Shown piece by piece: positions 5,275-17,461 of a stretch of 26,082 nt of DNA. The notes below the pieces were generated by a model. It had not been told where the DNA came from. It did not search any database and saw nothing but the letters and a program-made list of their open reading frames with translations. The stretch lies in IMG/VR virus record IMGVR_UViG_3300044619_001658, positions 1-26,082 of that record; one strand, given 5' to 3'. The translations under genes were made by a program, and so were the position numbers. Numbering within the stretch: the stretch's first letter is position 1; each line of letters starts with the position of its first letter. Source of the DNA: a virus.

Positions 5275-6755
5275 CAGTAGTACTCCCGTTTCTTGTGGTG
5301 CTGGGGCTCAGACATGTCTTCTTCGCCGTTCAGGGTAACAAAGCCGCCTTGCCTGAAACGCATGAGGGCCAATGTCATGCTATCACAAAAGTCATCATGG
5401 TCGCCAGATGGGAATGATGTCACCTCTTCGACGACATCCTCGGCAAAGGATTTCTCCATCGGAGCCCAAACCCGCCCTGCCTCGAACAGCGGGGCAACCA
5501 AGTGCATCCGGGTGTTCTTGTCAAAACCGCCCTTTCCCCTCCGGCCGGGGCTGAAGGTCAAGGCAGGGATGCCCCGGGCTCGGAATTCGTCCGCCAGAGG
5601 CTGTCCGGTGGCCTTGGCTTCGACCAAGACCATGTCCGGCTCCCAGTATTCGTGCTCCTCCCACGCAACTTCCTTCAATTCGGGGAAGGACCATCGCCCG
5701 CGCTTGGCGTCGAGCAATATTATTGCGTCTGGCTCCCCTTCGACGGGTGTAAACACGCCCCAAGTCGTGATTGCGGAGTAGTCGGCCGTCTCTTTCTTGG
5801 AAAACGCCGTGTCGTAGGCCTGCAGGACGTACTGAAGGTTCGGAACCTTCTCTTTGTCCCAGTTTTTCCACCACTCCTTGCGGATAATGGCCGATTCCGA
5901 CGATGTCGGCAGCTGCTGCCACTGCGCGGACCATTTTGCGAGGGGCAGAGCCGCCTTAACGCGCAAAAGTTCCTCAGTTTTCCAGAATTCCGGCCACAAA
6001 GCGTTGCCAGAGGGCAAAATGGCAGGGAATTCGACCACTTCCCACTGGTCAGCGAGGATGTCGTTGCCTTGGGCAGCCAAAAGACGGCCCGTCAGGTCCT
6101 TTTTGCCCCACCGCGTCATGACGATGATGATCGCGCCACCCGGCTGGAGACGCTGGCGGGGGCCGGAGGTGTACCATTCGTAGGCGCTATCGAAGGCGGT
6201 CTCCGACAGGGCGTCCTGTTCCGAGTGCGGGTCGTCGATGATGAACAAATCGGCCCCGCGGCCGGTCACGGCAGCGCCCACACCGGCAGCAAAGTACTCC
6301 CCGCCCTTCTCCGTGGACCACCGGCCCGCCGATTTCGAATCTTCCTTGAGCACCGTCTTCGGAAAAATCTCCTTGAAGGTGTCGGAATCGATCAAATCTC
6401 GCACTTTGCGGCCGAACCGGACGGCAAGTTCGGTGTTGTGGGTGGCCTGAATGATCTTGAGCTTCGGATTCCGGCCCAAAAACCACGCTGGCATGAGGTA
6501 TGAGGCGAATTCGGACTTCGAATGACGCGGCGGCATGTTGATGATCAGCCGCTTGATCTCGCCCCGGGCCACTTTTTCGAGCTTTTCGGCGATGACCCGG
6601 TGGTGCTTGCCCTCGATGAAGTTCTCGTAGACGTGGTGCACGAAGGGCATGAACGTCTCTTGGGCCTTTTCCCGCACCTCTTGGGTGCGCCGGGCCTCGA
6701 TGAGCTCCAGATACTCCTTCAGGGCCTCGTCTGGCATCAGCTCGAGATTAGACAC
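5274..6755 (-). CDS. terL: Terminase large subunit (DNA packaging ATPase-nuclease)
   Basis: A 493-residue motor protein that pumps DNA into the procapsid and cuts the concatemer. A Walker A-like loop (MPPRHSKS, residues 74-81) and a Walker B segment (DLFIIDDP, 169-176) are followed by the coupling motif VMTRW (212-216). The C-terminal RNase H-like nuclease shows the acidic residues expected of its active site: YDTAF (D314), VEAK (E379) and HDDFCDSM (around 453-460). The start is GTG at 6755, overlapping the end of the acetyltransferase gene. The small subunit lies about 9.3 kb away at 16067-16639, which is unusual. Confidence 0.95.
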   Translation of the reverse strand: MSNLELMPDEALKEYLELIEARRTQEVREKAQETFMPFVHHVYENFIEGKHHRVIAEKLEKVARGEIKRLIINMPPRHSKSEFASYLMPAWFLGRNPKLKIIQATHNTELAVRFGRKVRDLIDSDTFKEIFPKTVLKEDSKSAGRWSTEKGGEYFAAGVGAAVTGRGADLFIIDDPHSEQDALSETAFDSAYEWYTSGPRQRLQPGGAIIIVMTRWGKKDLTGRLLAAQGNDILADQWEVVEFPAILPSGNALWPEFWKTEELLRVKAALPLAKWSAQWQQLPTSSESAIIRKEWWKNWDKEKVPNLQYVLQAYDTAFSKKETADYSAITTWGVFTPVEGEPDAIILLDAKRGRWSFPELKEVAWEEHEYWEPDMVLVEAKATGQPLADEFRARGIPALTFSPGRRGKGGFDKNTRMHLVAPLFEAGRVWAPMEKSFAEDVVEEVTSFPSGDHDDFCDSMTLALMRFRQGGFVTLNGEEDMSEPQHHKKREYY

Positions 6756-15553: not shown

Positions 15554-16113
15554 TACTTTTCCAACAGCGCCGCATGGTGCGCCCGGCACACCGCCAGCAT
15601 CACCTGCACCAAGTCCGACAGGCTGGACCCCGACGCCAAGGCCTCGGCCCGAAGCCCGACCCGACCAACGTCCACCGCGTCCCGACCGTGCCACAAATAG
15701 TACCGGTCCCGACCCGACCCGACCGAGGTCCGAGGTCCACGGCCCGACTGCCCCCGACCCCGACCCGACTGCCCCGACCCGACCGACCCCGACCCGAGCT
15801 CCTCGGACCCCGGACCTTGGTCCTCGAATAGGCTGACAATTTGAGACGGCTTAGGCCGACCGGGGTCCTCTGCCAAGATGAATGATAACCCATGCTTATG
15901 GGTCAGCAGTGTATTATAAGCTATCTGCATATCTGAGAGCCGGATAAAAATTTTTTCCGCTACTTTCAGTTCAATTTTGAACGAACCTGCGGGGGAAGAT
16001 ACGTCCACATCCGGCAAACCGCCGCCGTGTCGGTTCTCAATGCGTGTCGTCATGCACTTTTCGGCCTCAAGAAGAGGCTTCAGGGCCTTCCATAGCTTCG
16101 CTTCCGGCCCCAT
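15541..16113 (-). CDS. PD-(D/E)XK nuclease-like protein with repeat-derived insert
   Basis: A 190-residue protein. Residues 1-95 look like a small restriction-endonuclease-fold domain: MGPEAKLWKALKPLLEA, ENRHGGGLPDVDVSS with D35, then FKIELKVAEK with E48 and K50, and a closing HGLSFILAED strand. VRR-NUC and phage Holliday-junction nucleases share this plan. Residues 99-135 are a Gly/Ser/Arg-rich stretch translated from CCCGA and RAGGWCC repeats. The C-terminal helix LSDLVQVMLAVCRAHHAALL may be a separate element. AAGGAG stands seven bases before the ATG, inside the end of TerS, with a 47-base overlap. Confidence 0.65.
   Translation of the reverse strand: MGPEAKLWKALKPLLEAEKCMTTRIENRHGGGLPDVDVSSPAGSFKIELKVAEKIFIRLSDMQIAYNTLLTHKHGLSFILAEDPGRPKPSQIVSLFEDQGPGSEELGSGSVGSGQSGRGRGQSGRGPRTSVGSGRDRYYLWHGRDAVDVGRVGLRAEALASGSSLSDLVQVMLAVCRAHHAALLEKYPGR
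15654..15826 (+). repeat. Degenerate CCCGA arrays with RAGGWCC heptamers, inside the nuclease gene
   Basis: Many CCCGA units in short runs (around 15654-15664, 15710-15722, 15756-15797), intermixed with heptamers GAGGTCC-GAGGTCC (15725-15738) and GGACCCC-GGACCTT-GGTCCTC (15805-15825). Both families keep the CCCGA orientation on plus although the gene is on minus. Confidence 0.7.
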
Positions 16114-16639
16114 TGGCAGGCTCCTTCGGTGTGATATCGCGCAAGAAGGGGTACTTATGCTGGAGCTCCAGCAGACGATCCATGATCTGGTCGCGGCTCA
16201 TGTTCTCAATGCGGTTGAGCGTCTCGCGGCGATCTGTGGTCAGGCCACCAAGGGCGCTGCGGAGCTTCTCGGCGTTGATGGCAGCGGAGAATTGCTTGGC
16301 CTCTTCGGCACCGCGTGACAGGTTGTAGAGGCGCTCGAGCTGGCCAATGGTGGTCACGCCATACTTGCGCTCCTTGGCCTCGCGGAGCTCCTTGATGTAT
16401 TCCACCACGTGGGGGAAGTCATTGCCGTTGAGCAGCTTGGCAGAATAGATGTGCGCCACATCGTGGCTGAACCCAGCCTTTCGGGCGCACTCGGCGTTGC
16501 TGTAGACGCCTTCCACGAAGAGCTCGGCAAAGGTCTTCTGCCGCTCGGTGAGCACCCTGCCGTGCTCGTCCTCAATGCGGGATATGGTCCCACCCTTGAT
16601 GGCAGCGGCGGCGTCCCGGTTCTTGATGCCTCTGGTCAT
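16067..16639 (-). CDS. terS: Terminase small subunit
   Basis: A 190-residue protein that would recognise the packaging site and load TerL. The N-terminal domain carries LTERQKTFAELFVEGVYSNA followed by ECARKAGFS (about residues 30-58), the helix-turn-helix typical of Terminase_2-type small subunits. Helical segments for ring assembly follow, with an acidic, Pro-rich tail. The ATG at 16639 follows a GGGGG run; a TTG twelve bases earlier is less likely. It lies about 9.3 kb from TerL on the same strand, separated by a plus-strand island and other genes. Confidence 0.8.
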   Translation of the reverse strand: MTRGIKNRDAAAAIKGGTISRIEDEHGRVLTERQKTFAELFVEGVYSNAECARKAGFSHDVAHIYSAKLLNGNDFPHVVEYIKELREAKERKYGVTTIGQLERLYNLSRGAEEAKQFSAAINAEKLRSALGGLTTDRRETLNRIENMSRDQIMDRLLELQHKYPFLRDITPKEPANGAGSEAMEGPEASS

Positions 16640-16705
16640 GCTGGCCCCCAAAATAAGCTACCTTTATCGATGCCCCAAGGCAGGGCAGGTCGTCAAGACC
16701 CTCCA

Positions 16706-16729
16706 CCCATAGGAGGTTTTAGGGGTCTC
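16706..16729 (+). repeat. 24-bp inverted repeat, left arm
   Basis: Begins CCCATAGGAGG and ends AGGGGTCTC. Matches the reverse complement of 16898-16921 at 22 of 24 positions. A partial extra copy, GAGACCCCCAAAAAGG, lies at 16752-16767 and can also pair with this arm. Confidence 0.75.
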
Positions 16730-16772
16730 CCCAAACGGTTCAAAAAAAGAAGAGACCCCCAAAAAGGTTAGA

Positions 16773-17129
16773 TGTAATCACTTGTAATCACCTGTAATCA
16801 TAAAATCTTGTCTAAGTTCTTGTTTTTGCTCAACATACTTTTCCTGATTACAATGATTACGCTGTTTACCCCCATGTGAAGTCAAAAACCAAACATAGAG
16901 ACCCCTAAAAAGTCCTATGGGGGCCAGTTTTGCCCTGTTTTTGGGCCCTAAGTCTTTGAAAAACAAACAAAAAAGCTGATTACAAACTGATTACAAACGG
17001 CCCTTTTTCGGGGTCCATTTTGTAATCATTGTAATCAGCGGGTCGTCTTTTCTGCTGTGATTTCATACACTTAGCACCAAGGACCGAGGTCGTCAAGGCC
17101 TCCCTCATGATTACAGTTTTTTGTAATCA
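16773..17129. other. Iteron-like cluster of TGTAATCA sites (candidate origin or operator array)
   Basis: Eleven sites in 357 bases, ten perfect. TGTAATCA occurs at 16773, 16783, 16793, 17021, 17030 and 17122, and TGATTACA at 16845, 16977, 16988 and 17108, with a one-mismatch copy at 16854. The first three are exactly ten bases apart, on one face of the helix. The last pair forms TGATTACA-gttttt-TGTAATCA. The whole gap 16640-17260 is AT-rich against its surroundings and has no convincing gene. It lies between divergent transcription units. Repeats of this density are typical of replication origins or repressor arrays. Confidence 0.6.
16898..16921 (-). repeat. 24-bp inverted repeat, right arm
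   Basis: Begins GAGACCCCTAAAAAG and ends CTATGGG. Pairs with 16706-16729; the two enclose 168 bases that hold five of the TGTAATCA-type sites. Confidence 0.75.
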
Positions 17130-17185
17130 AGGTCCAAGGTCCGAGAACCGCGCCCCTCCAAACCCATATCCAAGGACCGAGGCCC
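17079..17185 (+). repeat. Three RAGGWCC heptamer arrays in the leader region
   Basis: AAGGACC-GAGGTCG (17079-17092), AAGGTCC-AAGGTCC-GAGAACC (17129-17149) and AAGGACC-GAGGCCC (17172-17185), each with units exactly seven bases apart. They alternate with the last TGTAATCA sites and end just before the operon promoter. Confidence 0.7.
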
Positions 17186-17195
17186 ACGAATCTAG

Positions 17196-17225
17196 TTGAC
17201 ACGCATCCCCAGATACTTGTATCCT
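17196..17225 (+). promoter_or_regulatory. Promoter of the rightward operon
   Basis: TTGACA (17196-17201), 18 bases, TATCCT (17220-17225). GATAC-tt-GTATC (17212-17223) covers the -10 box and may be an operator. The first gene of the operon starts 36 bases downstream of the -10. Confidence 0.65.
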
Positions 17226-17260
17226 TTGCACAATACCACACCACAAGAAAGGAGCTCACT

Positions 17261-17461
17261 ATGTCTTCGGCAAAAGCCGACATCCCCCATCCAGACTATG
17301 GCCTAGACCATTCGACGCGCCTGCTTGTTTTGCAGGATGCGGAGATCATGGGCGTGAAGGCCGCTGCCCTGACCCACAACGTCTGCGTTGCCAGCGTCTA
17401 TGCTTGGCGCAATCGCTACGACTTCACTGCCCACCATGAAACCAAACGCAAGGAGAGCTGA
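17261..17461 (+). CDS. Small helix-turn-helix protein, first gene of the operon
   Basis: A 66-residue protein with a helix-turn-helix at about residues 27-52: EIMGVKAAALTHNVCVASVY followed by AWRNRY. The recognition-helix end (VYAWRNRY) is like that of transposase-type and phage regulatory HTHs. AAAGGAG lies eight bases before the ATG. First position behind a promoter with an overlapping inverted repeat, next to the TGTAATCA array, makes it a candidate regulator of this control region; that link is inference. Confidence 0.65.
   Translation: MSSAKADIPHPDYGLDHSTRLLVLQDAEIMGVKAAALTHNVCVASVYAWRNRYDFTAHHETKRKES

Follow-up and report, generated by a model that had tools for sequence, protein, structure and literature searches.

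A putative replication origin in aquatic phages: iterons that change in concert and vary with a residue of the phage primase

To our knowledge, replication origins have been described for few phages and for hardly any uncultured ones. One known case is satellite phage P4, whose alpha protein combines an AEP-type primase with a C-terminal origin-binding domain that recognises short repeats. Alpha carries its helicase domain in the same protein, whereas none was found in the primase discussed here and helicases are encoded by separate genes; moreover, we know of no switchable triplet in the P4 origin repeats.

Other systems share individual features with the locus that we describe. In SaPI Rep and SCCmec Cch2, a C-terminal domain recognises an iteron origin and a primase is encoded nearby (PMC7581432), but the reader there is the helicase, while here the proposed reader is the primase and the array lies upstream of the operon. 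In geminiviruses, one variable base of the iteron core pairs with one variable residue of Rep, and mismatched strains are replication-incompatible (PMC2974675). Rep is, however, an unrelated rolling-circle initiator of plant ssDNA viruses, as opposed to the tailed dsDNA phages considered here. In the marine phage NrS-1, priming by PrimPol, an AEP-type enzyme, depends on an 8-nt recognition sequence (PMC7102993); this is a motif of the ssDNA template with two copies per genome, without array or covariation, and the C-terminal region of the enzyme differs from that of the present phage primase. What would be new here is the primase itself as the reader, with no detected helicase domain, in a large lineage of aquatic phages with many triplet types.

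The window and its repeat array

The window, by which we mean the whole stretch of DNA that was analysed, is a 26,082-bp virus contig. Its large terminase is 52–59% identical to those of the Pelagibacter phages HTVC027P and HTVC023P, phage 023Pt_psg01 and phage DSL-LC04. As the genomes of these four are 57.6–61.5 kb long, the window would amount to about half a genome, and we take it to be a piece of an aquatic phage with a full genome of about 56–61 kb. An intergenic gap parts the leftward TerS and late genes from the rightward early genes, and a direct similarity search of the gap DNA against phage records returned no match. The features of the gap and its borders are as follows (start, end, strand).

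16652–17260, no strand: intergenic gap with iteron array (putative replication origin); gene-free, 44.5% GC, from TerS to the early operon
16070–16651, minus: terminase small subunit (TerS), flanking the gap; PHROG 51, E 2e-11; Pfam Terminase_2, E 2e-6; start codon likely the ATG at 16639
17261–17461, plus: first early gene, a 66-aa weakly HTH_23-like protein (E 0.002, below the curated cut-off)
16706–16729, plus: left arm of a 24-bp inverted repeat that frames the first clusters; 22/24 complementary
16751–16766, plus: partial third copy of the repeat arm (AGAGACCCCCAAAAAG), 94% identical to 16897–16912
16773–16800, plus: three direct iterons TGTAATCA in 10-bp phase (16773, 16783, 16793), from the exact scan
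16845–16861, minus: iteron TGATTACA at 16845 and near-copy TGATTACG at 16854, 9-bp spacing
16898–16921, minus: right arm of the 24-bp inverted repeat
16977–16995, minus: two iterons TGATTACA at 16977 and 16988, 11-bp spacing, from the exact scan
17021–17037, plus: two iterons TGTAATCA at 17021 and 17030, 9-bp spacing, from the exact scan
17108–17129, no strand: convergent iteron pair TGATTACA-N6-TGTAATCA (hairpin)

An earlier note on this DNA had drawn attention to the gap as AT-rich, gene-free and lying between divergent transcription units, all of which is borne out (44.5% GC against 59.6% for the window). The "HTH gene" that it placed beside the gap exists, the HTH assignment itself being weak. 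Eleven sites in 357 bases had been counted; an exact scan finds ten perfect TGTAATCA/TGATTACA sites from 16773 to 17129, which is indeed 357 bp (16773+, 16783+, 16793+, 16845−, 16977−, 16988−, 17021+, 17030+, 17108− and 17122+), and the eleventh is a near-copy that matches at 7 of 8 positions. No exact site occurs in the rest of the 26,082-bp window, and when the 609-bp gap was shuffled 2000 times with its dinucleotides preserved, no 8-mer reached more than four copies, compared with the ten observed. The spacings had been given correctly (10 and 10 for the three phased sites, 9 and 11 for the pairs), with the iterons at 16845–16861 oriented oppositely to the first cluster, and the sites at 17108 and 17122 do make a perfect hairpin (8-bp stem, 6-nt loop).

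The inverted repeat and its partial third copy are likewise real. In relatives L020 and L021 the repeat is 21/23 complementary, with GGCCCCCC where the window has GGGGTCTC, and in L022 it is 17/17 complementary. Since complementarity is kept even though both arms change, the inverted repeat is probably under selection. Two hallmarks of iteron origins are thus present in the window itself: short direct and inverted repeats that are mostly helically phased (ten exact copies, 9–11 bp apart within clusters), and an AT-rich segment in or beside them. GC-skew analysis, which the earlier note had recommended, gave a mixed outcome: the cumulative minimum falls near the array in the window and in relatives G044, G045 and G046, away from it in G010, and about 4.6 kb from it in G001, the test being weakly informative and confounded by divergent transcription.

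Concerted change of the central triplet among relatives

Searching with TerS brought up 37 closely related contigs at first and over 550 more distant ones later, of which 80 were kept. Looking for the same gap in relatives, as had also been proposed, proved rewarding: among the dozens examined, most have a homologous gap with an array, and some (L015, L116 and others) have no clear array. Upstream of the small-terminase gene these gaps hold 4–10 sites in one frame, TGT-NNN-CA, the central triplet being AAA, AAT, ACT, TCT, ATC, CAT, CCT, ATG or CAA at loci with at least four copies. The triplet varies among phages and is uniform inside most of them; when it switches, it does so in every copy, leaving spacers and site positions unchanged.

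This pattern is seen at several levels of relatedness. No TGTAATCA site is lost in phages near-identical to the window, where the tandem copies number three or four (three in the window versus four in the close relatives L006, L007 and L012), and other relatives lack TGTAATCA and have another repeated word at the same place. L033, L037 and L042 carry AAA, ATG and AAT, respectively, in otherwise near-identical DNA with unchanged spacers. In the near-identical phages L087, L091, L097 and L082, the triplets are swapped (TCT, CCT, AAA and CAA) and the spacers align. The layout of one such group consists of three forward sites at steps of 9–10 bp, a stretch of about 35 bp with TATAAATA in it, three reverse sites at steps of 9 bp and a further site 65–75 bp on, and these positions are the same across its TCT, CCT, CAA, AAA, AAT and ACT phages. 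Spacers that remain alignable while all triplets differ are as expected of binding sites for a protein whose specificity is changing.

A few loci depart from uniformity. In L094, the gap upstream of TerS has a left triple with CCT and a right triple with CAT, and this phage is probably a recombinant of two specificity groups. ACT (five) and AAT (four) sites occur together in the G046 (L279) gap near 13.17–13.35 kb. Compared with L005 and L007, L009 is identical to the window on the TerS/VRR side and of the L007 type on the early side, which we read as recombination close to the array. G045 has the array at both contig ends (the first and last ~300 bases) with identical spacing, which suggests that its genome, of about 55.7 kb, is circular or has terminal redundancy. 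L004, a 12.9-kb contig of 41% GC, also has three TGTAATCA sites in 10-bp steps at 5602–5629, in a divergent intergenic region; this is apparently a different phage, with no match among the window proteins tested.

A primase residue that varies with the repeats

To qualify as the reader of the triplet, a protein must not be the same in two phages whose triplets differ. By this logic the HTH protein at 17261, which the earlier note had put forward as a binder, is discarded: the 66-aa proteins of L009 and L013 agree in their HTH region, although TGTAATCA occurs ten times in L009 and not at all in L013. TerS is also rejected, as it differs at one C-terminal residue among L033, L035 and L037 (AAA versus ATG), not at all between L091 and L094, is 100% identical in G022 and L087 (AAA versus TCT), and has an HTH common to L007 and L013 with TGTAATCA counts of 11 and 0. 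VRR-NUC, fam3 (230 aa) and fam12 are rejected as well, since they show zero to few differences among phages with different triplets. Identity or near-identity despite different triplets disposes of the XRE protein (L037/L042), the RHH protein (fam29; L063/L070) and several small early proteins; the variable 74-aa early protein was rejected, and HTH fam28 and wHTH fam27 were rejected or unsupported. An AlpA-type protein looked convincing on six phages and then turned out to be identical at 71/71 positions in ACT, TCT and AAA phages, and (near-)identical in L153, L139 and L145 with differing triplets; within the window, a search for an AlpA-like protein gave chance matches only. Two loci were found for the 187-aa HTH protein of L042, and the early region of about 8 kb in L063 (CAT) and L070 (ACT) is 97–100% identical save for two short stretches.

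In relatives, alpA adjoins a gene for a primase of about 508 aa (507–510), which is absent from the window contig. The product matches the AEP-TOTE family (Pfam PF22548, E 1e-14, 55 bits against a cut-off of 27) and the PHROG "primase" (E 5e-95), with Prim-Pol structures as top fold matches. AEP-TOTE was the sole domain detected in it; no helicase domain was found, helicase genes being separate, and thus it lacks the fused helicase of the P4 alpha/D5-type primase-helicases. Between the primases of G001 (ACT) and G020 (TCT) there are 16 residue differences, 12 of which fall in the last ~55 aligned columns.

One position in the winged-helix C-terminus, Asn470 in G001 and termed p0 hereafter, follows the third base of the triplet: Ala occurs with AAA, Asn with AAT, ACT, CAT and TCT, and His with ATC. 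In the main set the classes are therefore N with T, A or S with A, and H with C, most of them resting on few lineages and C on one phage in the main subfamily. The rule was first noted on 12–13 phages, and eight phages examined later conformed: L263 and L264 (AAA, Ser), L312, L288 and G027 (AAT, Asn), L279 and L311 (ACT, Asn) and G010 (TGTAAA, Ala). Ser at p0 was new beside Ala and is small like it.

A blind scan of all columns in 17 gene families of 19 phages returned a single perfect third-base column, one in which the base classes do not overlap, namely primase p0; codes for the first and second bases gave no perfect column in the same scan. When labels were shuffled, at least one perfect column arose in 9 of 5000 trials, a figure computed over the eight families that all 19 phages share and without regard to relatedness, these phages being related and not independent. 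Close pairs point the same way as the shuffle, since p0 switches within near-identical backgrounds (G001/G020/G022, and G002 versus G044); the minimal pair is G002 (AAA), with CHGHKAINK, versus G044 and L312 (AAT), with CHGHKNINK. Two residues before p0, Lys accompanies second-base C in all four ACT phages, and the TCT phages have Val or Arg; as Val is found with AAA too, the second-base code is not clean. The earlier idea of a phage initiator encoded outside the window was therefore a good one, with the primase as candidate by virtue of covariation in relatives, and it is from these that we predict Asn at p0, and probably His two residues before it, in the primase of the window phage.

AlphaFold2 models (pLDDT 82.5 for the whole primase and 80.5 for the last 117 residues) have a Prim-Pol-like N-terminus (top Foldseek match E 4e-10) and a winged-helix C-terminus, in which p0 and p-2 are alternate residues on the predicted wing strand, after the last helix. 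The best VIA-align match of the C-terminal domain is TcpK of pCW3 (Z 7.3, rmsd 2.7, 81 aligned), and the C-terminal winged helix of SCCmec Cch was also matched (Z 6.4, rmsd 2.7, 84 aligned), Z values under 8 indicating a shared fold class only. The P4 origin-binding domain is absent from the fold-match lists for the primase models. TcpK binds a nine-nucleotide tandem repeat mainly via its beta-wing in the major groove (PMC6137059), and so sets a precedent for the proposed mode of the primase, although it is a conjugation accessory protein and no primase, the likeness being in the winged helix and the short tandem repeats.

In divergent subfamilies the association is looser. L359 (AAT, Asn) fits the rule. 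L374 and L385 (TGTAAC/CGTAAC) have Arg at p0 and G012 and G013 (TGTAAC) have Lys, so basic residues accompany C in those phages, and G011 and G016 (TGTACT) have Gln, a misfit unless Gln is counted with Asn; the wider rule (H/K/R for C, N/Q for T) was framed after these data were seen. L383 and L391, relatives with 87% identity, have near-identical gaps with the repeated words TGTCT(G/T) and TGTCGA, respectively, and the 27/511 differences between their primases include Arg472/Ser472 at p0. Sites and p0 thus change together here too, but L383 departs from the simple code.

In the marine phages 8–11 kb separate the array from the primase gene, although the operon direction is the same. In cultured phages, Acinetobacter, Salmonella and Klebsiella isolates among them, iteron-like arrays immediately precede the primase gene; the repeated words are GGTTGCTC in the Acinetobacter phages SH-Ab 15497 and DMU1, GGTTACTC in Bhz20, CGTTCCA in Salmonella PMBT28, Pseudomonas PSA28 and Klebsiella VLCpiS6a, and GGTTCCA in Providencia Kokobel2. 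Barton and JeffCo have a weaker repeat only (TGTTACC, three copies). Two arrays are found in SH-Ab 15497 (L342; 20959–21060 and 43039–43236, about half a genome apart) and in PMBT28 (L343; 20885–20977 and 43642–43901). Both of these phages also have an adenylosuccinate synthetase-like gene, which is characteristic of 2-aminoadenine phages.

Origin, operator or packaging site

With clustered, phased sites in an AT-rich gap, covariation with the primase and a replication enzyme as the reader, the simplest account is an iteron origin. We consider it probable that the array consists of replication-origin iterons bound by the phage AEP-TOTE primase, and we infer both binding and origin activity from the comparative pattern. 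The third hallmark of such origins, an initiator matched to the repeats, is seen as covariation in relatives, the window's own primase gene lying beyond the contig.

The earlier note had left the choice between a replication origin and a master operator; of these, covariation of the sites with the phage primase favours the origin. If the array were an operator for the divergent TerS and early promoters, read by the primase wing or another regulator, replication would start elsewhere. Its place amid divergent transcription units would suit such a role, as would the promoter-like TATAAATA between two site triples in relatives L082–L110, which is followed by a TTGACC...TATAAC promoter, and the arrays immediately upstream of the primase gene in the isolates, which autoregulation predicts. 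However, the covarying protein is a primase and not a repressor; among the candidates found (XRE, RHH, AlpA) no recognition helix follows the sites, wHTH regulators do not covary either, and the second arrays of SH-Ab 15497 and PMBT28 are far from the primase gene. We therefore regard a purely operator function as unlikely. More doubtful still is that the triplet has a different reader, encoded by the host or by another phage gene, and that the primase column agrees with it through common descent: these phages are indeed related, and the comparison covered part of the genes of the genomes, with structural genes included for few phages, but a single perfect column emerged among 17 families, it switches inside near-identical backgrounds, and the G001/G020 differences concentrate in the C-terminal domain.

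In some phages the targets of TerS are repeated sites, and the array borders terS, so a packaging (pac/cos) site of the adjacent small terminase also deserves mention. Site specificity does not follow TerS, which is identical or near-identical in phages with different triplets, and we give this explanation a very slight chance, although the constant flanks may have a packaging role. That the array is a functionless neutral repeat kept by inheritance is scarcely credible; the tandem part does vary in copy number (three in the window, four in L007), but six or more scattered, variously oriented sites change together, between alignable spacers and at positions conserved across phages.

Under the origin model, each TGT-NNN-CA word would be bound by the primase through the winged-helix domain at its C-terminus. 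The wing strand would read the central triplet, with p0 setting the third base and p-2 having a share in the second. Assembled on phased direct and inverted sites, several primases would make up a nucleoprotein complex that surrounds the AT-rich centre. They would open this centre, start synthesis with their primers and bring in the helicases and the polymerase, which have genes of their own. As the array stands at the head of the early operon, to which the primase gene belongs, the same binding may also regulate that operon, likely as a secondary role. Once the primase wing had changed, all sites would have to follow, and groups with different triplets should be replication-incompatible.

On balance, we lean towards the view that this aquatic lineage possesses a readable code between primase wing and origin iterons, with many origin-specificity groups that are probably mutually incompatible, array and wing being exchanged or mutated together, much like iteron and Rep in geminiviruses. 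If this is true, origin and reader would be predictable from sequence alone for many abundant aquatic phages, replication-compatibility groups could be called from metagenomes, and the lineage would offer many naturally occurring pairs of wing strand and DNA site with which a protein–DNA recognition code could be tested. It would also raise the question of why the address of the origin keeps changing, with interference during coinfection, satellites and host defence as potential reasons.

A second dispersed motif, CCRAGGNCCRAG, is present in ten copies in the window, on both strands and in some cases within predicted genes (17077, 17134, 17170, 7032, 11663, 11863, 15723, 18246, 19775 and 19947). 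There are 12 copies in relative G010 and none in G001 or G044, and the gap of L013 contains a related word in a tandem array.
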